In this document: positions 2 to 11,010 of the stretch, one piece after another
How positions within the stretch are numbered: the stretch's first letter is position 1
How the letters are laid out: each line of letters starts with the position of its first letter
Origin: Oscillospiraceae bacterium
Lineage (GTDB): Bacteria; Bacillota; Clostridia; Oscillospirales; Oscillospiraceae
Direction of reading: 5' to 3'
DNA length: 57,844 bases
NCBI GenBank assembly: GCA_017439425.1
Contig: JAFSJE010000068.1
Location: forward strand, 1-57,844
Position numbers and translations under genes: made by a program
The notes under the pieces: model-generated
The model's database searches: none
What the model was told of the DNA's origin: nothing
Seen by the model: the letters and a program-made list of their open reading frames with translations, nothing else

Positions 2-73
2 GTCACGGGCAAAATTTCCGTCACATTACACCGCAACGTGGGCGACAAAATGTCGCTCACGTTCACGCTCTGA
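2..73 (+). CDS. C-terminal end of an unknown gene (cut by window edge)
   Basis: Reading from base 2 there is an open frame of 23 codons ending in TGA at 71-73. The end of the peptide reads RNVGDKMSLTFTL, an alternating hydrophobic pattern like the last beta strand of a small sandwich or PDZ-type domain. No start is inside the window, so this can only be the 3' end of a gene lying to the left. Its last codons form the first stem-loop of the array that follows. The family cannot be named from so little sequence, and the frame could be open by chance. Confidence 0.4.
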   Translation, partial: VTGKISVTLHRNVGDKMSLTFTL

Positions 74-358
74 CCTCGCGGACATTTTGTCCGCGAGGTC
101 AACTTATCGTGGTGCCCGTCACCGTGTCGCCCACCATAACGAACTGCCGCAATGTCTGATCCTCTAAAAACGACATTTTGTCGGTTTTAAGAGAGTGGTG
201 CCCGCGCGCGGCGCAGTCACCATTTTCTAAAACGGACACCGTGTCCGTTTTAAGGAATCAAACCGCACGCAGCTCGTTTTGATTTCAACCTCGATCAAAA
301 CGAAACCGTCTCGTTTTGATCGTCCACCGACCAGAACGACAAAGTGACGTTCTGATCG
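35..358. repeat. Array of about nine stem-loops with 3-nt loops
   Basis: Successive palindromes of 25-32 nt each have two 11-15 nt arms around a 3-nt centre: 35-63 (AAA), 72-100 (TTT, 13 perfect pairs), 110-136 (CCG, imperfect), 162-193 (TTT), 196-222 (GCG), 227-254 (CCG), 256-284 (GCA, degenerate), 292-322 (CCG, 13 of 14 pairs), 328-358 (AAG, 12 of 14 pairs). Centres lie 30-37 nt apart except for one 54-nt step. The core is usually GACA-NNN-TGTC, while the outer arms differ from unit to unit but stay complementary. No T-runs follow, so these are not simple terminators. They lie next to the xis/repressor/int module; function unknown. Confidence 0.85.
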
Positions 359-400: not shown

Positions 401-616
401 CTACTCCACTTGCCGTACTTCGTCCCGACATCGCAGGTTACGACCCTGATTGGCGCTCATGAAGTGCTCTAAGGTATCGGTGCGTATAATAGCCTTTCGC
501 CCGACCTTCAGCACCGGCAGCTTGCCCCATTCGACCAGCTTCCGCATGGTATTCCGCCCAATCCCCGTAATTTCGGCAGCTTCGTCGATGGTCACGCCCA
601 ATTTGACAACGCTGAT
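401..616 (-). CDS. Excisionase-like helix-turn-helix protein
   Basis: Small protein of about 70 residues with a MerR/excisionase-type helix-turn-helix: TIDEAAEITGIGRNTMRKLV, then a basic stretch with KVGRKAIIRTDTLEHF, the usual layout of Tn916-type Xis or DNA-binding domain excisionase-family proteins. Such proteins bend att DNA and steer the integrase towards excision. The start is unclear. A consensus promoter (666-694) puts the transcript start near 659, and the only good Shine-Dalgarno (GGGAGG, minus strand, 631-626) precedes an in-frame ATC at 616-614. In-frame TTG codons at 652 and 601 are alternatives. The ATG at 721 lies upstream of the promoter and cannot be used from it. Transcribed away from the repressor and integrase genes. 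Confidence 0.7.
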   Translation of the reverse strand: MSVVKLGVTIDEAAEITGIGRNTMRKLVEWGKLPVLKVGRKAIIRTDTLEHFMSANQGRNLRCRDEVRQVE

Positions 617-638
617 TGTGCCTCGCCTCCCTTCGTTT

Positions 639-761
639 GTTGCAAATCGCAACTCATTTGAGGGAAGTATAGCAGGCCGCACCGGATTTGTCAATAGCGT
701 ATTGCAACTTATTTTTGACACTCAACAAAAATTATTGAAAAGAACTATTGCAAATTGCAAC
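639..761. promoter_or_regulatory. Repressor operators, TTGCAA type (three sites)
   Basis: Three related sites: 639-653 GTTGCAAATCGCAAC, 700-710 TATTGCAACTT and 747-761 ATTGCAAATTGCAAC. The first lies at the start of the excisionase transcript, the second just upstream of its -35, and the third covers the -35 of the repressor promoter. This is what is expected for an XRE repressor acting on both promoters. Assignment to this repressor is inference. Confidence 0.65.
666..694 (-). promoter_or_regulatory. Sigma-A promoter of the excisionase gene
   Basis: On the minus strand TTGACA (694-689), a 17-nt spacer and TATACT (671-666). Predicted transcript start near 659. It is flanked by TTGCAA operators. 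Confidence 0.75.
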
Positions 762-800: not shown

Positions 801-1475
801 ATGAAAACAGAAAGCAAGTTCACCGCAAAACAGGTCGGGGATCGGATCAGGGAACGCCGCACGGAGCTTCGCCTGTCCATGAATGATCTTGGCGAGCGGC
901 TTGGCGTCAACAAGTCCACCATCCAGCGGTACGAGGCGAACGGCGTCGATCCCAAGAAAACCTACATGATCGTTTCCCTTGCAAACGCTTTGGAAACGAC
1001 GCCGGAGTGGCTCAGCGGCTTGTCCGACGCGAAGGAGTACGACAACTACACCATCTGCAAAAAAGCCATTGACGAGCATATCTCGGCGTACCTCTATGAG
1101 ATGACGACTACCATCAGCGGTGAAGGACATCAGCAGTTGATGAACAACTTGCTCGGTGAGTTCATCGACCTCTATTCCATCCTCTGCTGCCACTTTGCGC
1201 GGGCGATGACGGAAGCGGACAGGATCGCGGAGGACGAGGGCTTGAAGGAATCAATTCGCCGGTACGCCATCGAGATCGGCGACGTGATCCAGAAGTCCTA
1301 CGTCAAGGAGATGGAAGCGCCGATTGAGGACATGAAGCGGCTGCTTGACGGCATTTTGCATCTCTACGACAACGGGCGCACAAGCGTCAAGATGAGCGAT
1401 CTTTTCAGCATCAAAGAACAGGCGCGGGAGCGCCTGAACGAAATCAGTGAAAGTAATGATTCCGTGACACCTTGA
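801..1475 (+). CDS. XRE-family repressor of the mobile element
   Basis: 224-residue protein beginning at ATG 801 with Shine-Dalgarno GAGGTG upstream. The reading frame stays open further left, but that part overlaps the xis gene and promoter and is not real. Residues about 8-65 form a Cro/C1 helix-turn-helix (QVGDRIRERRTELRLSMNDL, then GVNKSTIQRYEANGV). The rest is mostly helical without a peptidase motif, so it is not an ImmA/LexA-type self-cleaving repressor. Such proteins keep the element integrated by silencing excision genes; the TTGCAA sites in its promoter and beside the xis promoter fit that role. A short hairpin after the stop separates it from int. Confidence 0.85.
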   Translation: MKTESKFTAKQVGDRIRERRTELRLSMNDLGERLGVNKSTIQRYEANGVDPKKTYMIVSLANALETTPEWLSGLSDAKEYDNYTICKKAIDEHISAYLYEMTTTISGEGHQQLMNNLLGEFIDLYSILCCHFARAMTEADRIAEDEGLKESIRRYAIEIGDVIQKSYVKEMEAPIEDMKRLLDGILHLYDNGRTSVKMSDLFSIKEQARERLNEISESNDSVTP

Positions 1476-1506: not shown

Positions 1507-1585
1507 GTCTGTGATATAATCCCTTTACACGCAACGTATGTCACAGGCCCGATTGCCACGGAACAGAAAGGAGAAGTATTTACCG

Positions 1586-2884
1586 ATGGCAAAAGGTTCT
1601 GTGAGGAAAAAAGGCAACAAGTGGTACTACCGCTTCTACGTCGAGGACGAGAGCGGGAAGCTGGTGCAACGTGAGTTCACCGGCACGGCAAGCAAAAGCG
1701 AGACGGAAGCGATGCTCCGCAAGGCGATGGAGGACTACGAGGCAAAGAAGTTTGTCGCCAAAGCCGAGAACGTCACGGTCGGCGGTCTGCTGGATCTGTG
1801 GGTTGAGGAAGAATTGAAACCCGGTAATCTGAGCAACGGCACGGTCATGTCGTACATGGGAACGGTGGGGCGCGTGAAGCGGTATCCCATCGGCAGCCGG
1901 AAGCTGAAAACGGTCACACCGGAGCATTTGCAGGCGTTTTTCGATCACCTGTCCTTTGGCGGCGTTAACGCGGACGGCGCAAAGGACAAGCCGATCAGCA
2001 AGGGCTATATGCGGCTGTTCTCGGCGGTGATGCAGGGCGCGTTCCGCTTCGCGGTGTTTCCCAAGCGGTTGATGACCTACAATCCGATGCAGTATGTGAA
2101 GATCAAGCAGAAGCAGGAAACGCAGGAGCTGTTCACAGAAGATGCGGAGGACGGTTGTACCGTTCCGACCATCAGCTTTGAACAGTATAAGGCGCTGACG
2201 GATTGGCTCAAAAAGAAAAACAATCCGGCGCTCCTGCCCATCCGGATCGCCTACTTCACCGGGCTTCGCATCGGAGAGGCCTGCGCGCTCACATGGCAGG
2301 ACATCGACCTCAAGGAGCAGACGATCACGGTGCGGCGCAGTATGCGCTACAACGGGGCGCGGCACAAGACGGAGATCGGCACGACGAAGCGGAACAAAAT
2401 CCGCACGGTGGACTTCTGCGACACGCTGGCGGCGATCCTCAAGGCGGCGAAGGCCGAGCAGCACAAAAACCGCTTTCGGTACGGCGAGCTTTACAGCCTG
2501 AACTACTGTAAGCAGGTGCAGGAAAAGGGACGCAGTTACTATGAGCTTTACAGCCTCCCGCAGTCCGAGAAAGTCCCGGAGGATTGCAAGGAGCTGTCCT
2601 TTGTCTGTCTCCGTCCCGATGGGTGCTACGAATCCGCGAGTACGGTGAGCATTGTGTGCCGGACGGTGGCGAAAAAGGTGCCGGGTTTGGAAGGCTTCCA
2701 TTTCCATCAGCTTCGTCACACGTTCACAAGTAACCTGCTTGCGAACGGCGCGGCACCGAAAGATGTGCAGGAGCTGTTAGGTCATGCCGATGTAAGTACC
2801 ACAATGAACATCTACGCCCACGCAACGAGGGAAGCCAAACGCTCCTCGGCCCGCCTGCTGGATAAGGTAGCAGGCGGCGGCTGA
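1586..2884 (+). CDS. int: Tyrosine recombinase (site-specific integrase)
   Basis: 432 residues from ATG 1586, preceded by AAGGAGAAG; an earlier in-frame ATG at 1538 lacks such a site. The N-terminal part ([15 protein letters not shown]) is an AP2-like arm-binding domain, followed by a SAM-like core-binding domain (about 75-180) and the catalytic domain. Catalytic residues are visible: R228 (TGLRIGEA), H374 and R377 (HQLRHTF), H400 (GHADVSTT) and nucleophile Y410 (NIYAHA). This is the layout of Tn916/ICE and Gram-positive prophage integrases. Its position as the last gene before a host-like GNAT gene suggests that the element's attachment site lies just downstream. Expression with the repressor is plausible but unproven. 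Confidence 0.95.
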
Positions 2885-2890
2885 AAAAAG

Positions 2891-2930
2891 TTTCCCTTGT
2901 TTTTGCCCGTGAGGGAAAAAACAAGGGAAA
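2891..2930. terminator. 14-bp perfect inverted repeat after int
   Basis: TTTCCCTTGTTTTT (2891-2904) and AAAAACAAGGGAAA (2917-2930) around a 12-nt loop, starting 6 nt after the int stop. It would terminate int transcription and could also lie within the attachment region. Confidence 0.7.
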
Positions 2931-3673: not shown

Positions 3674-6600
3674 TTATTTCGAGTATATTGCGACGTCCCG
3701 GATCTCTACCTCGGCTGTTCTGAGCTTATTGTTCTTTGAAGAACCGAACTGCCAGAGAAGCTCATACGCGGAGTCAGCGTCGAGGGCGTTTGTTGTGAAG
3801 GTGTACTCCTTCTCCTCGGTGCCGACGCCGAGGTTCTCGTAGATTGCGGTGTTCCACTCGCCCGCTCGGTTCAGAACGAACACGCAGTCGATATTCTTGT
3901 TTGCCTTCGCCTTGAAGGTCACGGTGTAGGTCTTGCCCGCCTTGAGCTCGACGTCGGGAATGGTGATCTTGTTCTCTCCGTCGGACTTGGATATCTTTGT
4001 CATGTTGTAGGTGATCTTGCCGCCTGCGGTGCTCATAGTGCCGCTCGCGCTGCCCTCGGCGTTGTACATCCACACAACGCTCTGCGGGAAGAGTATGCTG
4101 CTCACAGCCGTCGGCTCGGCGGTAGCGTAATCGATCTCCTTTGCCGCGACATACTTAAACTCAGCCGGAAGCACGCTCTTCGCGCCGCCCGTCACAAGCT
4201 CCTCAACTCTGACGTTCGAGACAGTGACTGCGTTCGCGCCTGCCGCCTTGCCGAGTGAGAGCTGGATGATAAGCTCGGAGTTTGCATTCGGCGTGAGAGT
4301 CGCAGTAACGGTGGACTTGTTCGCGCCCGCGCGCAGATCGTAGAGCGCGCCGACGCCCTTCTCGACCGCGCCGTTATTGTAGCAGATTTCATAATTGACA
4401 GCCGACTGCGCCGAAACGTCCATGCGCACGCGATAGGTCTTGCCTGTCGTGAGGTGAGCGCCGGTCTCAACGAACATTTTGACCTTCCACGCCTCTCTGC
4501 CGGTGGCAGGAACGGAGGTGATGTTCATCGTCGCCGATGTACCGTTATCAGTGAGATTTACCGCGTAATCCTCGTGCGCCCAGCCGTTTACGGTGCTCTT
4601 CGAGGCTAAGCTGAACGCAGTCGGCAGAACGCTCTCGCCCTCGGTAAGCTCAACGCTCTCGACTTTTATATCTGAAACTGTTATCGCGTTTCCGCTCTCG
4701 GAATTTCCGAGATTGAACTGAAGGACGAGGTCGGAGGCGTTTTCCATATCCGCGGGAACTGTGATAAGTCCGCTGACATTGCTCTTTTCGCCTGCCTTAA
4801 GTCCGTAGAGAGCGCCGTAGCCCGCCTCGGCGGCGCCGTTATTGAAGCAGAGCTCGAAGCCCTGAGCCTTCTCAGCGGCGACAGAAGCGCTTACGCGGTA
4901 GCTCTTGCCTGCCTCGAGTGACGCTCCGGTGGCGACAAAGAGCTTGATCTTCCACGGCTCAGCGTTCTCAGCAGTTTTATTTACGTTCACAACAGCCGCG
5001 CTGCCCGTTCCGGCGACGGATGCTTCGTAATCCTCGTGCGCCCAGAAGTCGAGGCTCGAGCCGGTAACGTAGCTTATGGGCTTTGTGAGTGCGTCAGTGC
5101 CGCCGGTGAAGCCGATCTTCTCGACGACGAGATTTGAAACGGTTATCTCATTTTCGGCTGTTGCGTTGCCGAGCGAGAGCTGGAGAACGAGGTTATTGAG
5201 ATAATTCATATCCTCGGGAATGGTGATTATCTTCTCATAGGTCTTTTTCTCGCCGGCAGGTGCGGTGAGACCGTAGACTGCGCCGTAGCCCTTCTCCTCA
5301 TTACCCTTGTTGTAGCAGATCTCGAACGGCTGCTCGGTCTTTGAGAGAACGTCGAGCTTGACGCGATAGCTCTCGCCTGCCTTGGGTCTGACGAGCGTAT
5401 CGACGAAGTATTTGACCTTCCAAGGCTCTCTGCCCTCTGTGGGAAGCGAGGTAATCGCAAGGGTCGCGCCGGTATCGGCGCCGGAGAGCGAGACCCTGTA
5501 ATCCTCGTGTGCCCATGCTGTTATCGGGCCGTCAACGTCGGCGGAGTAGGTGAAGTAGTTCGTATTGTATGTAATCTCTTCAATCTTAAGCTCACTGATT
5601 GTATAGGTGCAGGGAGTGTCAGTTCTGCCGAGGCAGAGCTGAAGCTCAAGGTTATGCGTCTCCTTCGCGTCGATAACAAAGGTCGCGGTGCCGCCGGAGG
5701 TAAATTCCTTAGCGCCGAAGCTTCCCTCACCTGTGCCGTTATAGCGAATCTCATAGCTCTGCTTATTCGCGGCGTCACAGTCTACGTCGACGCTCACGCG
5801 GTAGCTCTTGCCGGACTCGAGAGTAACCCCCGTGTTGACAAACTGCTTTATCTGCCACTCGCTTCTGCTGGCGGGTACTGCCTTGACCTCGAGGCTCGCC
5901 GCGCTCTCACCGCCGGTAAGTCTGACCTCATAGCCGTTGTCAGCCCATACGCTGAAGTGTCCGCCGTCGCTGAGCGCGAAGCCGGAGGGCAGCACGTTTT
6001 CCGCTGTTCCGAGCTCCTCGACCTCGATTTTGTTAATGGTGAGAACAGTATCTTTGGGCGCTTTGCCTATTTCAAAGATAAGATGCAGGTTTTCCGCCGC
6101 GTCAGCGTTCAGAATATAGGCTATCGTGCCGGTGCCGTTAAAGGCGTGCTGATCGTACTTTGCGCCGTAGCCCTTTTCCTCTCCGCCCTTGTTGTAGAGG
6201 AGATTGTAGTCAAAATCCTTGTTGGAGGTCACATTTACGGCGACTCTGTAAGTCTTGCCGGCCTCGATCCACGCGCGATACTCCGCATAATACTTGATTT
6301 TCCACGGCTCCGCAGACTCGTTAGTCTCATCATTTGTAACAGTGAGAGTCGAGGAGTTTTCGGTGGTGTTCGAGAGCACGACTCTGTAATCGTCTCCGAA
6401 CTCCTGCCTTGCCCATGCGTGAACCGGCGCAAACTCGTTGCTCAGCTCATCGGTCATAAGGTTATTCGCTTCATCCGAGCTCTTGACGATCCTTATATTG
6501 CTGACGGTTATCTCATTTCCGGCGGCGGTGTTTCCGAGTTCGAAGATAAGCTTTATTTCGCCTCTTCCGTCGATGCCGCCCGGAGTGGTGAAGGTAACGC

Positions 6601-9475
6601 ATTTTTCTCCGGTTTCGGTCTGCTCATACGCTCCGCCGTAATTTTCTGACCTGCGCGAATTGGCGCAGATGAGATTGTACTGACCAAGGTCTCCGGTCGC
6701 GGCAACGGTCGCATAGACCTTGTACTCGGTATTCGACTCGGGGAATACGCCGGTATTCACAATGAGCTTCGACGACCAGACTCCGCCGCCACTCCGCGCA
6801 GAGGTCACGTTCAGCGTAACAGCGCCGCTTTCGGCGGACGCAGTCTGACCTACGCCATCATACTGCTCGGTAAATACGTTCTGACGCTTTGAGTTGTAAT
6901 CCGTGCTCTGTTTCGCGGTGTAGGGAATCTTCTCGACCATGACGCCGCTTACAGTGATAACGTTGCCGACGTCGGTATCGCCGAACTGGAAGCGGAGAAC
7001 TATCTCGCCGCAGCTCGAATCTTCCGGAACCTTGAAAATGCTTGAAATCTCGGTATCGGCGTTCTCAGCGGCGTGGAGCCACGGGCGCTTGCCCTCTCCG
7101 TAGCCGTTTTCCACAGTGCCGTTATCAATTACAAGCTCAAATTCCCTGCTGCCATCGAGGAAACCCTTGCTCGCTTTGACATTTGCTGTGACTTTGTAGA
7201 TCGCCCCCGCCTCCGGATAAACTCCGGTGGAGATAAGCATTCTTGATGCCCAGACCTTGCCCGTTCCGTTGGGCGCCTTTGTAATTGTCAGCGCTGCGCT
7301 TGTTCCGTCGGTGGAAAGGTTCTGCTCAAGGCCCTCGCCCTGCTCCGCCTTTACGGTGACCTTGTCGTACTTGAAGCCAGTGGAAAGCACGCTCGCGCCG
7401 GGCACTACCGTTCTGCTGACGCCAGTTCTCATCTCAGTGATAACGCTGTTGAAGGAGAAGGATTCGGGGAGGATATCGGTATATTCGGACGTGAGCTCCT
7501 CAACCTTGATATCACTTATTGTGATCTTGGTTCCCTCTGCCGCATTTCCGACGGAGAGCTGAATGACAAGTCGACCATTATTATCCGGCGCGCCGGTGAT
7601 GATCCTCTCGACGGTCTTCTTCGCGTTTGCGGCGAGCTTCTGACCGTAGAGGACGTCGTAGCCCTTCTCAACGTCGCCGCTGTTATAGCAGAGCTCGTAA
7701 TCGAGCGCCTTATTTGTCTCAACGGTGAAGGTCGCGCGATAGCTCTTGCCCGCCTCCGGGACTACGCCCGTATCGGCGAGGAGCTTCGCCATCCAGACCT
7801 CGCGGGACAGCGCGGTCTTTTCAATCGTCATCGTCGCGGAGGTATCGGTATTATCAAGCGAAGCCTCGTAACCGTCAAAGAGCCAGCTTGTGATATTGCC
7901 GACGGAGGCGTAATTGATCGCCTCGGGAAGAACGCTTACGTTGCCCTTTTCGGTGATTTCACAGACCTTGACGTCGCTGACTGTGACAGCGTTTTCAGCG
8001 GGGCTTTTTCCGAGCATAAGCTGAATCGTGAGCTCGCCCTTGCCGTCAGTGCCGGCGACTGTGTATTCTATGGTCTTTTTCTCGCCGGAAGCGAGCTTTT
8101 CGCCGTACTGAGCGCCGTAGCCCTTCTCCTCGGACGCCTTGTTGTACGAAATCTCGTACTCCGTCTCCTTAGCCGAGGCGACGGAGAAGCTGACGGCGTA
8201 GCTCTTGCCCGCCTCGGGCGTTACGCCGGTATGGATAAGGAGCTTCGACTCATAGACCTCTCCCTTTTCGGGAACGGCGTCTATCCTGAGCACTGCGCTG
8301 TCGCTGTTTCTTTCAAGGCGCTGGGTGTATGTATCCGCGTGCTGCTCGCTCACGGCCTCGAAGGTGCCGTAGGTGATCGCAGACATTACGCTGCGGTAGC
8401 TCAGGTTGACCTCCTCGACCTTAAGACCGGAAACGCTGATGACGTTGCCGGAAGCAGAATTGGTCTTGCCGAGTTGGAGGCGAAGCACAAGCTCGCCGGC
8501 GGATCTCTCCGGAGTGACGAGGTATTCGATTCTGTCAGTGCCGCCCGCAGTGAGGCTTCTCCCGTAGAGCGCGCCGTAGGCGTTCTCAGACGTGCCGTCG
8601 AAGCAGACCTCATACTCGCTCTGACTCTTCTCAGCGCCTACGTTGAGGCTCACGCGGTAGGTCTTGCCCGCCTCGAGGGCAGCGCCGGTGTTAATGAGCA
8701 TCTTGGCTTTCCAGACGCCTCTGTCGGAGGCGGGAGCGGCAGCGATATTCAGCTTCGCGCCCGTCTCGGCGGCGGTGAGGTGTACCTCGTATCCGCCGTC
8801 GTGCTGCTCTGTGACGGTCTCTCTGAGCGCGCCGCCGATGGTGGCGGTGGAGCCTGAGCCGTCCGGCGCGTACTCCTCGACCTTGATCTCATAGAGGTCG
8901 ATCACAAAGGGTGCGAGCGCGCCGAGCTGGAGGTCGATGTACTTATTGTCGCCGTCCGCCTTGAAAGTGCCGGTTACGGTGTTTTTGCCCTTTTCGATGG
9001 TGAAGCTCTGATTATCGCCGAACTTGACCGTTCCGGCGGTATCGGAATCGAAATCAAAGGTGACGCGATAGGTGCTGCCCGGATTTGTCGCAAGCGTGCT
9101 CTCGAGCTTCAGGTGCCACGATTCTCCGTCGGTCTTGGAGGCGGCGATTCTGTAAGCTCCGTTTACAACCTCGCTCGTCGCGGCGACAGAATCGCCCTCA
9201 AGCTTTGTATTGAACACCGCGCTGGAGACGTTTTCAAAGGAATACTCCTTTGTGCCGAGGCTCATCGCCGGCACGGACTGTGTATCGTCTGTCTTCGGCT
9301 CTGTGGGAGTCGTCGGAGTAGTCTGTGTTGACGGGGTCGTTGGCGCGGGGGTGGTCTGCGAGGGCTGAGAGTTCGGCTCCTCGGTCTTAACGGGCTCCTG
9401 TGTCTGCGCACCGCAGCCTGAGAGTATCATTACTATGGCAAGCGAAAGTGCAAGAATTCGACTTAACTTTTTCAT
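3674..9475 (-). CDS. Giant surface lipoprotein of about twelve CBM-like modules
   Basis: 1933 residues. The lipoprotein signal ends in the lipobox LSGC (Cys21); a Pro/Thr/Gln-rich linker (about 25-70) follows. The rest is a tandem of about twelve beta-sandwich modules of roughly 140-190 residues. The ten middle ones repeat the pattern W-x-x-K-x-x-x-x-T-G, then E-A-G-K-S/T-Y-R-V, E-x-C-Y-N, and end V-S-D/N-I-K-V-E-E, as in CBM4/9-type carbohydrate-binding modules; the first and last are more divergent. No catalytic domain is visible. It is the last gene of an operon with a GH32 lipoprotein and another CBM lipoprotein. Inference: a surface arm that holds polysaccharide near the enzyme. CBM assignment is by pattern only. 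Confidence 0.85.
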   Translation of the reverse strand: MKKLSRILALSLAIVMILSGCGAQTQEPVKTEEPNSQPSQTTPAPTTPSTQTTPTTPTEPKTDDTQSVPAMSLGTKEYSFENVSSAVFNTKLEGDSVAATSEVVNGAYRIAASKTDGESWHLKLESTLATNPGSTYRVTFDFDSDTAGTVKFGDNQSFTIEKGKNTVTGTFKADGDNKYIDLQLGALAPFVIDLYEIKVEEYAPDGSGSTATIGGALRETVTEQHDGGYEVHLTAAETGAKLNIAAAPASDRGVWKAKMLINTGAALEAGKTYRVSLNVGAEKSQSEYEVCFDGTSENAYGALYGRSLTAGGTDRIEYLVTPERSAGELVLRLQLGKTNSASGNVISVSGLKVEEVNLSYRSVMSAITYGTFEAVSEQHADTYTQRLERNSDSAVLRIDAVPEKGEVYESKLLIHTGVTPEAGKSYAVSFSVASAKETEYEISYNKASEEKGYGAQYGEKLASGEKKTIEYTVAGTDGKGELTIQLMLGKSPAENAVTVSDVKVCEITEKGNVSVLPEAINYASVGNITSWLFDGYEASLDNTDTSATMTIEKTALSREVWMAKLLADTGVVPEAGKSYRATFTVETNKALDYELCYNSGDVEKGYDVLYGQKLAANAKKTVERIITGAPDNNGRLVIQLSVGNAAEGTKITISDIKVEELTSEYTDILPESFSFNSVITEMRTGVSRTVVPGASVLSTGFKYDKVTVKAEQGEGLEQNLSTDGTSAALTITKAPNGTGKVWASRMLISTGVYPEAGAIYKVTANVKASKGFLDGSREFELVIDNGTVENGYGEGKRPWLHAAENADTEISSIFKVPEDSSCGEIVLRFQFGDTDVGNVITVSGVMVEKIPYTAKQSTDYNSKRQNVFTEQYDGVGQTASAESGAVTLNVTSARSGGGVWSSKLIVNTGVFPESNTEYKVYATVAATGDLGQYNLICANSRRSENYGGAYEQTETGEKCVTFTTPGGIDGRGEIKLIFELGNTAAGNEITVSNIRIVKSSDEANNLMTDELSNEFAPVHAWARQEFGDDYRVVLSNTTENSSTLTVTNDETNESAEPWKIKYYAEYRAWIEAGKTYRVAVNVTSNKDFDYNLLYNKGGEEKGYGAKYDQHAFNGTGTIAYILNADAAENLHLIFEIGKAPKDTVLTINKIEVEELGTAENVLPSGFALSDGGHFSVWADNGYEVRLTGGESAASLEVKAVPASRSEWQIKQFVNTGVTLESGKSYRVSVDVDCDAANKQSYEIRYNGTGEGSFGAKEFTSGGTATFVIDAKETHNLELQLCLGRTDTPCTYTISELKIEEITYNTNYFTYSADVDGPITAWAHEDYRVSLSGADTGATLAITSLPTEGREPWKVKYFVDTLVRPKAGESYRVKLDVLSKTEQPFEICYNKGNEEKGYGAVYGLTAPAGEKKTYEKIITIPEDMNYLNNLVLQLSLGNATAENEITVSNLVVEKIGFTGGTDALTKPISYVTGSSLDFWAHEDYEASVAGTGSAAVVNVNKTAENAEPWKIKLFVATGASLEAGKSYRVSASVAAEKAQGFELCFNNGAAEAGYGALYGLKAGEKSNVSGLITVPADMENASDLVLQFNLGNSESGNAITVSDIKVESVELTEGESVLPTAFSLASKSTVNGWAHEDYAVNLTDNGTSATMNITSVPATGREAWKVKMFVETGAHLTTGKTYRVRMDVSAQSAVNYEICYNNGAVEKGVGALYDLRAGANKSTVTATLTPNANSELIIQLSLGKAAGANAVTVSNVRVEELVTGGAKSVLPAEFKYVAAKEIDYATAEPTAVSSILFPQSVVWMYNAEGSASGTMSTAGGKITYNMTKISKSDGENKITIPDVELKAGKTYTVTFKAKANKNIDCVFVLNRAGEWNTAIYENLGVGTEEKEYTFTTNALDADSAYELLWQFGSSKNNKLRTAEVEIRDVAIYSK

Positions 9476-9492: not shown

Positions 9493-11010
9493 TTATCTCG
9501 TGTATTCCTTAAGTCCGGTAAACTCGACTGTGTTTTCCTCGCAGAAAAGTCTGACGCTCTTTCCGGCGACGCCGTAGAGGCGGACTGTGAGCGCCGCGAC
9601 GCCGTCAACGTAGAACGTGCCGACGCTGCCCTCCTGAATGTATGTGAAGGTGTACTCCCTGCCCTTTTCAAGCGCGGCGAGGGTTTCGGTAACGGGGGTA
9701 AGTCCCTCGTTGAACGAGAGGCTGAGCGTGCCCTCGGAGGGACTCAGCGTGATGAGCTTGTAGCTCTCTTTTTCTCCGTTGTAGTCGAAGGCAAGGCCGA
9801 AGTCGCCGTTTCCGTCGAACTTGAAGCTGCCCTTGAGCATGAAGCTCTCGTAGGCGGTGAACACATCAGTGTAGGAGTATTTCGAGCCGGAGGCTATGGT
9901 CGCGCTCATGCTGTCGATATTGAGCTCTCTGCGGACAGTGTACTGCGCGGCGATAGAGTCCGCGGGTGCGAGATAGAGCGTGCCGTCGGCGTTCCGGCAG
10001 AGCCTCTGAACAGCCATATTGCCCGCCCACGCGGCAACTCTTTCGGTATCGTCCGCATACTCGGAACGTCTTGCCCAGCCGACCATATATGTGCCGTCCT
10101 TGCCCTCAACGTGCTTTGCCGCGTAGAAGAGCTTGGCGTCGAGGCGGCAGGCGTCGCCGTAGGGGCCATAGGGCGCGTCGCTCATCGCGTACCAGAGCGT
10201 ATCGTCCTGTCCGGAGTAGGTTATGTAGTACTTATCTCCGAGCTTGAAGGTATCGGAGCACTCGAGATTCCAGAAGCGCCCGGTGGGGTCGGTGAAGATA
10301 ACGCCGTCGTAGGTCGCGCTCGAGAGGTCAGGACTCAGCGTGAACTTGAGTATCCTCGCGACTCCGCCCTGCGAGGCGGTGACGGTAAGGATAATGTTGC
10401 CGGTCGCCTCATCGACGTATGCCTGCGGGTCGCGGAAGTCGTTTTTCTGTCCGAGCTCCTCCGGCGGGATAAGCTCCCAGTCGGTCTTTTTCGTGAAGGA
10501 GGTGAGGCTCGTGCCCTCGGCTACGAGGATCTTCTCCTTGTACTCAGCGTAATCCGAGGAGTGGTGTCCGGTGTAGAAGAATAGATATCTGCCTCCGACC
10601 TTGACCACCGAGCCGGTGCCGACCCAGCCGTCCTGACCGCCGTCGTAGTTGGACTCGATGATAACGTCCTCGGTCTCGGTGTAATTTACAAAATCGGTGG
10701 TCTGTGTGAGATAGATGGAGTGGTTATAGCTGTCGGCGCCCTGCTTGAGGTAGTAGATGTAATATGTGCCGTCCTCGTAGTAGGGCATCGTATCTCCGAC
10801 GTAAGCCTGAATGGGGCCGTAGGCGGCCGGCAGGAAGTAGCCCTTGTAGGTAAACTCCTTTTCCATGTCCTCGGGGTCGGTTATCGCGGAAAAGTCGGTC
10901 TCTCCGTCGACCTTTTTGAACTCCTCGCCGTCCTCAGCCTTCTTTGCGCAGGCGCAGAGTGCGAGCGCGAGGGCAATTACCAATAGAAACGCTGTCATTC
11001 TCTTTTTCAT
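9493..11010 (-). CDS. GH32-type (clan GH-J) surface glycosidase, lipoprotein
   Basis: 505 residues from ATG 11010; GGAGGTCACT sits just upstream, inside the first codons of a slightly longer frame, so the shorter start is used. The lipobox LCAC gives Cys21. The three clan GH-J acidic motifs are present: D73 in VGDTMPYYEDG (nucleophile position), D194 in the RDP motif (DFRDPQAY) and E250 in the EC motif (NLECSDTF, acid/base). The C-terminal half is the beta-sandwich usual for GH32, ending VRLFCEENTVEFTGLKEY. GH32 enzymes cut beta-fructosides such as inulin, levan or sucrose; the exact substrate cannot be read. The first motif differs from the classic NDPNG, so an unusual specificity is possible. 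Flanked by two CBM lipoproteins in one operon. Confidence 0.85.
   Translation of the reverse strand: MKKRMTAFLLVIALALALCACAKKAEDGEEFKKVDGETDFSAITDPEDMEKEFTYKGYFLPAAYGPIQAYVGDTMPYYEDGTYYIYYLKQGADSYNHSIYLTQTTDFVNYTETEDVIIESNYDGGQDGWVGTGSVVKVGGRYLFFYTGHHSSDYAEYKEKILVAEGTSLTSFTKKTDWELIPPEELGQKNDFRDPQAYVDEATGNIILTVTASQGGVARILKFTLSPDLSSATYDGVIFTDPTGRFWNLECSDTFKLGDKYYITYSGQDDTLWYAMSDAPYGPYGDACRLDAKLFYAAKHVEGKDGTYMVGWARRSEYADDTERVAAWAGNMAVQRLCRNADGTLYLAPADSIAAQYTVRRELNIDSMSATIASGSKYSYTDVFTAYESFMLKGSFKFDGNGDFGLAFDYNGEKESYKLITLSPSEGTLSLSFNEGLTPVTETLAALEKGREYTFTYIQEGSVGTFYVDGVAALTVRLYGVAGKSVRLFCEENTVEFTGLKEYTR

Follow-up and report, generated by a model that had tools for sequence, protein, structure and literature searches.

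The first 358 nucleotides of a contig from an Oscillospiraceae bacterium (GenBank JAFSJE010000068.1) carry one palindrome after another, next to genes for an excisionase-like protein, a repressor-like protein and a tyrosine integrase. The locus raises the question whether such a row acts as folded nucleic acid or as a set of double-stranded sites, which molecule would read it and whether it belongs to the integrase module at its side. The whole stretch of 57,844 nucleotides that was analysed is referred to as the window, and its features are presented in Table 1.

A row of nine palindromes at a contig end

Nine palindromes with arms of about 14 bp around a 3-bp centre were located between positions 35 and 358 of the window, centred at 49, 86, 123, 177, 209, 240, 270, 307 and 343. 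In the first 375 nt, 9 or more of 13 Watson-Crick pairs are formed at eleven centres, namely those of the nine units and two inter-unit centres at 291 and 325, as compared to at most four in any other 375-nt tile and at most four in dinucleotide shuffles (n = 300); the rest of the window has 0.6 such centres per 360 nt. The nine-odd palindromes in a row that had been noticed from the sequence are therefore real. Position 1 of the window is the end of the contig (C59) in a genome of 2.3 Mb and 95.5% completeness, and the row is therefore probably truncated. By eye, a possible extra unit is seen near position 13 and a weak one near 150.

Table 1. Palindromic units and other features of the window, with the second intergenic row
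Feature	Position	Strand	Description	Pairs
u1	35..63		half-sites CGACA/CGACA, outer arms AACGTGGG	12/13
u2	71..101		perfect 14-bp arms, half-sites GGACA/GGACA	
u3	110..136		TGGTG...CACCA, half-sites CGTCA/CGACA	9/13
u5	161..194		half-sites CGACA/CGACA, outer arms CTCTAAAA	
u6	196..222		TGGTG...CACCA, core GCGC	10/13
u7	224..257		half-sites GGACA/GGACA, outer arms TTCTAAAAC	
u8	257..283		ATCAAA...TTTGAT, diverged core	10/13
u9	292..322		CGATCAAAACG..., half-sites CGAAA/CGAGA	12/13
u10	328..358		half-sites CGACA/CGTCA	11/13
Open frame end containing u1	2..73	+	VTGKISVTLHRNVGDKMSLTFTL, then stop	
Excisionase-like gene (xis)	401..721	-	HTH_17, Tn916-Xis; neighbour, membership in the array not supported	
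HTH_3 repressor-like gene	801..1475	+	inside open frame 450-1475; neighbour	
Tyrosine integrase gene (int)	1538..2884	+	neighbour; many relatives adjoin a MobL relaxase	
Long inverted repeat	2891-2930		directly after the integrase gene; terminator-like by eye	
Reading frame	3674-9475	-	1933 residues, lipoprotein-like start, repeated units	
L160 row, second intergenic row	1428-1978 (G440:C11, ~8.79-9.34 kb)		seven palindromes	

The outer arms differ from unit to unit, yet they pair well. When the nine units are aligned, 87.2% of the cells are paired as compared to 55.4% in shuffles, slid controls reach 32-42%, and 13 of the 14 arm pairs have changed on both sides. The compensating arm changes claimed in the preliminary description thus held up in the covariation test that it had proposed. 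Its conserved 3-nt loop did not, since the centre varies among the units (AAA, TTT, CCG, TTT, GCG, CCG, GCA, CCG and AAG, in order). A core of GACA-NNN-TGTC, described as prevailing, is present on both arms in four of the nine units and on one arm in two more, with u6, u8 and u9 departing from it, and the alternating TGGTG...CACCA type does occur, amounting to two of the nine units (u3 and u6).

CRISPR arrays are built of tandem units with constant and variable parts. Unlike these, every unit of the window is a palindrome by itself, and constant repeat and spacers are both absent, in agreement with the earlier statement that the row is not a CRISPR. Stops break the frames, so that none is open through the whole array; together with a similarity to known sites that is confined to the palindromes (see below), this speaks against a decayed coding sequence whose codons would explain them. 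The open frame end that contains u1 has no PHROG match and may be due to chance or represent the tail of a truncated gene. Long T runs after the units were not seen by eye in the window sequence, and a BLAST search of positions 1-400 against phages and plasmids gave no match.

Palindromes and recognition helices in ParB-like genes

Run on the genome that contains the window, a covariance model built from the array units (R1) detected one weak solitary match besides the array. At E 0.01 it matched 16 of 400 genomes of the family, for the most part at isolated palindromes. One of the matches (L156) places the sequence of u7 in frame within a ParB_N-domain gene, and another (L160) is an intergenic row of seven palindromes. 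The other single matches in the genus and family are mostly isolated palindromes, and inspection of the L043 sequence revealed a terminator-like hairpin. A palindrome pattern with up to two mismatches showed no excess in the 400 genomes (9 genomes versus 8 for the reversed control). The exact pattern AAACGGACANNNTGTCCGTTT was found in 16 viral contigs versus none for its reversed control, and in 11 of the 16 the palindrome lies inside genes of three kinds. Six of these genes have a family match, to ParB_N (L177, L189), MT-A70 (L187) or DUF3102 (L178, L185 and, just under the cut-off, L182), and five more are alike by eye (L192, L179, L180, L184, L186). In the DUF3102-or-similar phage proteins (L178, L180, L182, L184, L185, L186) the palindrome is placed just outside the helix-turn-helix.

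For the ParB-like genes, 80 phage loci were retrieved with the N-terminal 125 residues only, the linker having no part in the retrieval, and 68 non-redundant loci remained after 12 were dropped as at least 90% alike. The best palindrome of the linker, before the helix-turn-helix, scores at least 8 in 60 of the 68 loci (88%). Background windows (n = 3,728) reach this score in 1.05% of cases and synonymous shuffles in 7.0%; in 42 of the 68 loci the palindrome outscores 99% of the synonymous shuffles made from that locus. In 55 of 62 phage loci, the palindrome is centred on a third codon position. Linker scores range from 3 to 6 in 21 ParB genes assigned by eye to the chromosomal type. The palindromes inside Clostridial genes score lower than those of phages: of 17 distinct ones, 15 have scores of 5-9.5, and L284, L315 and L291 fall inside the 3-6 range of the chromosomal-type genes. 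Other strong palindromes, scoring 9.5-15, are present in the same region of seven conjugative-transposon-type ParB genes (by eye), namely L276 of the window's own genome and L334-L339; in this survey, whose scores stand without a null, L275, L332 and L333 reach 7.5-8 in that region and the other ParB genes 4-8.5. With the unit model, 28 of 50 phage records match, each at one place except L183, a count that is a minimum as R1 misses many known sites. L183, a 20.6-kb phage contig, has four near-identical palindromes of the AAAACGGACA...TGTCCGTTTT type within about 500 bases (10076-10589), crossed by open frames of up to 208 residues, none of which was identified. No row was seen near 16 Clostridial ParB-like loci.

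An inserted mobile palindrome was considered for the linker and rejected, since the linker has the same length whether or not it carries a palindrome (mostly 31-40 residues to the helix with one versus 32-37 without). Rickettsia palindromic elements are palindromes inside reading frames. In contrast to these, the palindromes described here leave the linker length unchanged, occupy one place in one gene family and follow the helix of the protein, and are therefore not inserted copies of one element.

The core bases of the in-gene palindromes follow two residues of the recognition helix in 53 phage ParB-like loci, which remained from the 68 after removal of six with a palindrome score below 7, seven without a parsed helix and two with irregular helices (L264, L214). 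The first helix residue is matched by the corresponding base in 52 of the 53. Lysine is found with AAC in 6/6 cases and leucine, asparagine or threonine with AAA in 7/7, while arginine is found with either in 0/39. On the N-domain tree, with residue classes that had been set after an earlier look at helix/site pairs, 14 of 17 class changes of the first residue and 9/9 changes of the second fall on branches where the site changes. Nine of ten Clostridial ParB-like genes fit the code. Among seven further Clostridial genes, judged by eye, L313, L315 and L317 fit, in L314, L316 and L320 the first residue alone fits (L320 having T with CCC/CGC, against the code), and L318 fits no code class; serine with C, as in L291, also speaks against the code. 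Since the core bases follow the two helix residues, the encoded ParB-like protein is most likely the reader of its own in-gene site. The code leaves the palindromic outer arms unexplained; they stay palindromic though unread by it.

Sites inside the gene of their reader have precedents. The available text of PMC4442127 places parS-359 inside parB of Bacillus subtilis, that of PMC5043065 places ori-lambda inside gene O, and that of PMC7383237 attributes the specificity of ParB and Noc to four residues. The parS sites of ParB and Noc resemble the in-gene sites in being palindromes for a protein with ParB_N and helix-turn-helix domains, in that they can sit in the parB gene, and in a specificity that depends on few residues. 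In contrast to parS, the sites described here are about 27-31 bp long with a 3-bp centre and differ among genes in step with the recognition helix, and the row of the window consists of differing units with no parB gene in sight. The terms 'palindrom' and 'intragenic' are absent from the main text of a recent ParB-fold survey (PMC12704722), and no published report of the helix code or of such rows was found in a literature search that lay mostly outside the subscription journals.

Window units as candidate dimer sites

Four units of the window match in-gene sites beyond a permuted-arm null (300 permutations). u1 equals the in-gene site of the ParB-like gene L285 at 27 of 29 bases and u7 that of L156, also at 27 (null maximum 22 for both), u5 that of L317 at 24 and u2 that of L284 at 22 (null maximum 20 for both). 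The best matches of u3 and of u10 (the latter to L323/L166) are 20/29, equal to the null maximum, and u6, u8 and u9 have no match above the null; three loci that were too short and three second copies were left out of the comparison. Flanks of the matched sites agree at 9 and 5 of 29 bases for u1, 8 and 9 for u7 and 12 and 7 for u5, about 7 being expected by chance, and the similarity is therefore essentially confined to the palindrome. Both half-sites have the core of the in-gene sites in four of the nine units, one half-site has it in u3, u9 and u10, and neither in u6 and u8.

Given that the palindromes recur in ParB-like genes, with cores that track the recognition helix, the most likely role of the units is that of dimer-binding sites and not of RNA hairpins. 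Judged from sequence comparison, the array probably comprises nine or more palindromic sites on double-stranded DNA for dimers of mobile-element ParB-like proteins, i.e. proteins with a ParB_N domain and a helix-turn-helix. Applied to the units, the code suggests an E-R or Q-R helix as the reader of the CGACA units and an R-R helix as that of the GGACA units (u2 and u7). The mixed cores (CGACA, GGACA and others) suggest that several proteins, or one tolerant protein, read the array. The window's genome contains four ParB_N genes, none of them of the L156 type at E 1e-8 in the assembled sequence, which ends at the array on this contig. The lack of a cognate gene in this assembly speaks against the reading, as do the weaker Clostridial in-gene palindromes and the unmatched units u6, u8 and u9. 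A ParB-like protein of the same element, its gene lost at the contig end, or one of incoming elements would load on the array, and the loaded array might then work as a centromere- or operator-like loading zone. A loading zone of this kind, belonging to a truncated element, seems to be the plainest reading.

The preliminary description had offered a dimeric binding site alongside a folded RNA, a recombination site and a single-strand origin; the former is strongly supported by the ParB-like in-gene sites and the helix code, and the latter three found no support. The array folds strongly (z-scores of -9.4 for the plus strand and -11.0 for the minus strand), and in the related in-gene palindromes G-T mismatches exceed A-C mismatches on the coding strand (22 versus 7, offsets 2-11), as would be expected of a transcript that folds into hairpins, be it a small RNA or the 3' end of the xis mRNA. 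The G-T excess, which speaks against a role purely as DNA sites, could reflect constraints on codons or an additional function at the RNA level. Against an RNA role, the array has no Rfam match at the gathering score (two weak microRNA matches fall below threshold), the mismatches of the units favour neither strand by eye, and covariation with a helix is a feature of protein-DNA recognition; an RNA function for the row is therefore highly improbable.

Palindrome rows are also known from origins of replication. The row could be, or be part of, a lambda-O-like origin. In that case its helix-turn-helix initiator would be encoded beyond the contig end on the left, and u1 would belong to the final part of the initiator gene. 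Tandem palindromes are frequent in viral contigs (at least 120 with GGACA, 85 with CGACA and 73 with GGAAC), and some of these rows lie in genes, by eye in the linker after a winged helix (L362, L360). Lambda-O-like palindrome rows were observed, by eye, inside phage helix-turn-helix genes at positions 5762-5912 of L362, 11886-12071 of L360 and 1162-1334 of L419. In this other protein family the second half of the code carries over, agreeing in 27 of 54 helices (GGACA 12/18, CGACA 2/5, GGAAC 13/31), a number reached by 0 of 20,000 permutations. Carry-over of the first half was rejected, as its 32 of 54 agreements (GGACA 5/18, CGACA 2/5, GGAAC 25/31) are reached by 332 of 20,000 permutations. 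The 54 helices were obtained by collapsing 72 motif matches among 233 contigs (80, 80 and 73 for GGACA, CGACA and GGAAC), with a pattern devised after a looser, mostly noisy one and with some of the 72 plainly noise.

The iterons of ori-lambda resemble the array in forming a row of inverted-repeat sites for a protein dimer, and ori-lambda lies in the gene of its reader, according to the available text of PMC5043065. Lambda-type iterons would be expected to repeat a near-identical site. The units of L362 and L419 share most of their outer arms, those of L360 only a base or two beyond the core. In contrast, the outer arms of the window units differ between units and are well paired, most units lie outside frames and they match ParB-like in-gene sites; in 80 of the at least 120 GGACA loci the outer arms pair mostly at 2-4 of 8 positions. 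An initiator gene is not present on the window contig, beyond whose end it would lie. An origin is an unlikely explanation of the row, and sites for ParB-like dimers are preferred.

Relatives of the row and the neighbouring module

The preliminary description had placed the array beside an integrase module and proposed a search for such arrays next to xis and int genes in relatives. The unit model matches none of 84 related integrase loci (L074 and L023 among them being the same contig), and L273, run alongside, is the sole source with a match. A palindrome scan of the related loci gave no row either; L066, scored as a row of 12 palindromes, was rejected because runs of N had been paired with N. 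Beside xis in 85 related-integrase loci we identified a MobL-type relaxase in 55, a ParB-like gene in one (L135) and something else in 11, the contig ending in five and xis not being found in 13, so that 18 of the 85 loci do not extend to the left of xis or have no recognised xis. With no match to the unit model beside the module in 84 relatives, the array was rejected as a regular part of the xis/repressor/int element. In L135, the ParB-like gene with its in-gene site (5564-6487) is about 0.36 kb from the xis of a related integrase, close to the position at which the window carries the array. A GCGAAATACAC...GTGTATTTCGC repeat, possibly an oriT, adjoins xis in L023, with variants in L019 and L021 (by eye); none was seen at positions 360-400 of the window.

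Two intergenic rows were found in all, those of the window and of L160. The L160 row shares outer-arm types with the window (AACGTG, ATCA[AG]AACG and GGTG), adjoins a DUF4143/AAA gene and has type III restriction-modification genes nearby (by eye). Its genome (G440) is 98% complete, and the only ParB_N genes found in it, two in number, look by eye like the chromosomal type. Relatives of the window's genome have no row in 99 genomes searched by BLAST or in 34 genomes of the genus searched with the unit model.

Extra copies of parS cause incompatibility. It is possible, though not likely, that the rows act in this way, i.e. as arrays of ParB-like sites of several specificities that would bind, and thereby disturb, the ParB-like proteins brought in by phages and integrative elements, a reading that is a special case of the preferred one, so that the confidences in the two overlap. 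The in-gene sites that the window units resemble come from different ParB-like alleles, and the setting of the L160 row, near restriction-modification genes in a genome whose ParB_N genes are both chromosomal, is in line with it. On the other side, only these two rows were found, with a putative action for each, the window genome is incomplete at its array, and a BLAST search over the L160 row gave no match to the row in 41 other genomes of its genus (five matched, all outside the row). With similar reserve, some Clostridia may keep a tandem library of differing ParB-type sites, akin to the in-gene sites of several mobile-element ParB-like proteins, in genomes without those genes, capturing the partition-type proteins of invaders.

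Template switching corrects quasi-palindromes. The row might thus consist of former sites in decay, whose palindromes persist through template switching and which serve no present function, and the three units with diverged cores, the lack of a reading frame and the absence of a row in the relatives (99 genomes by BLAST, 34 genus genomes by unit model, 84 loci) fit such a relic. However, the outer arms of u9 pair perfectly despite its diverged core, and the in-gene sites follow their protein, which indicates selection on the type of site, at least there. We consider a relic rather unlikely, and a loading zone for ParB-like dimers remains the preferred reading of the array.

Many genes of phages and elements appear to hold, in the linker, the DNA site that their own product reads, so that gene and site form one unit in which they travel and can change together. 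From sequence alone, such genes yield many natural pairs of protein and site, together with a code that can be read within one helix-turn-helix family. The evolution of DNA specificity, a long-standing question, thereby becomes directly testable. If the rows do act on the proteins of incoming elements, they would constitute an addressable defence that works through protein-DNA recognition instead of RNA guides. The code, in turn, suggests readers of orphan rows such as the array of the window.
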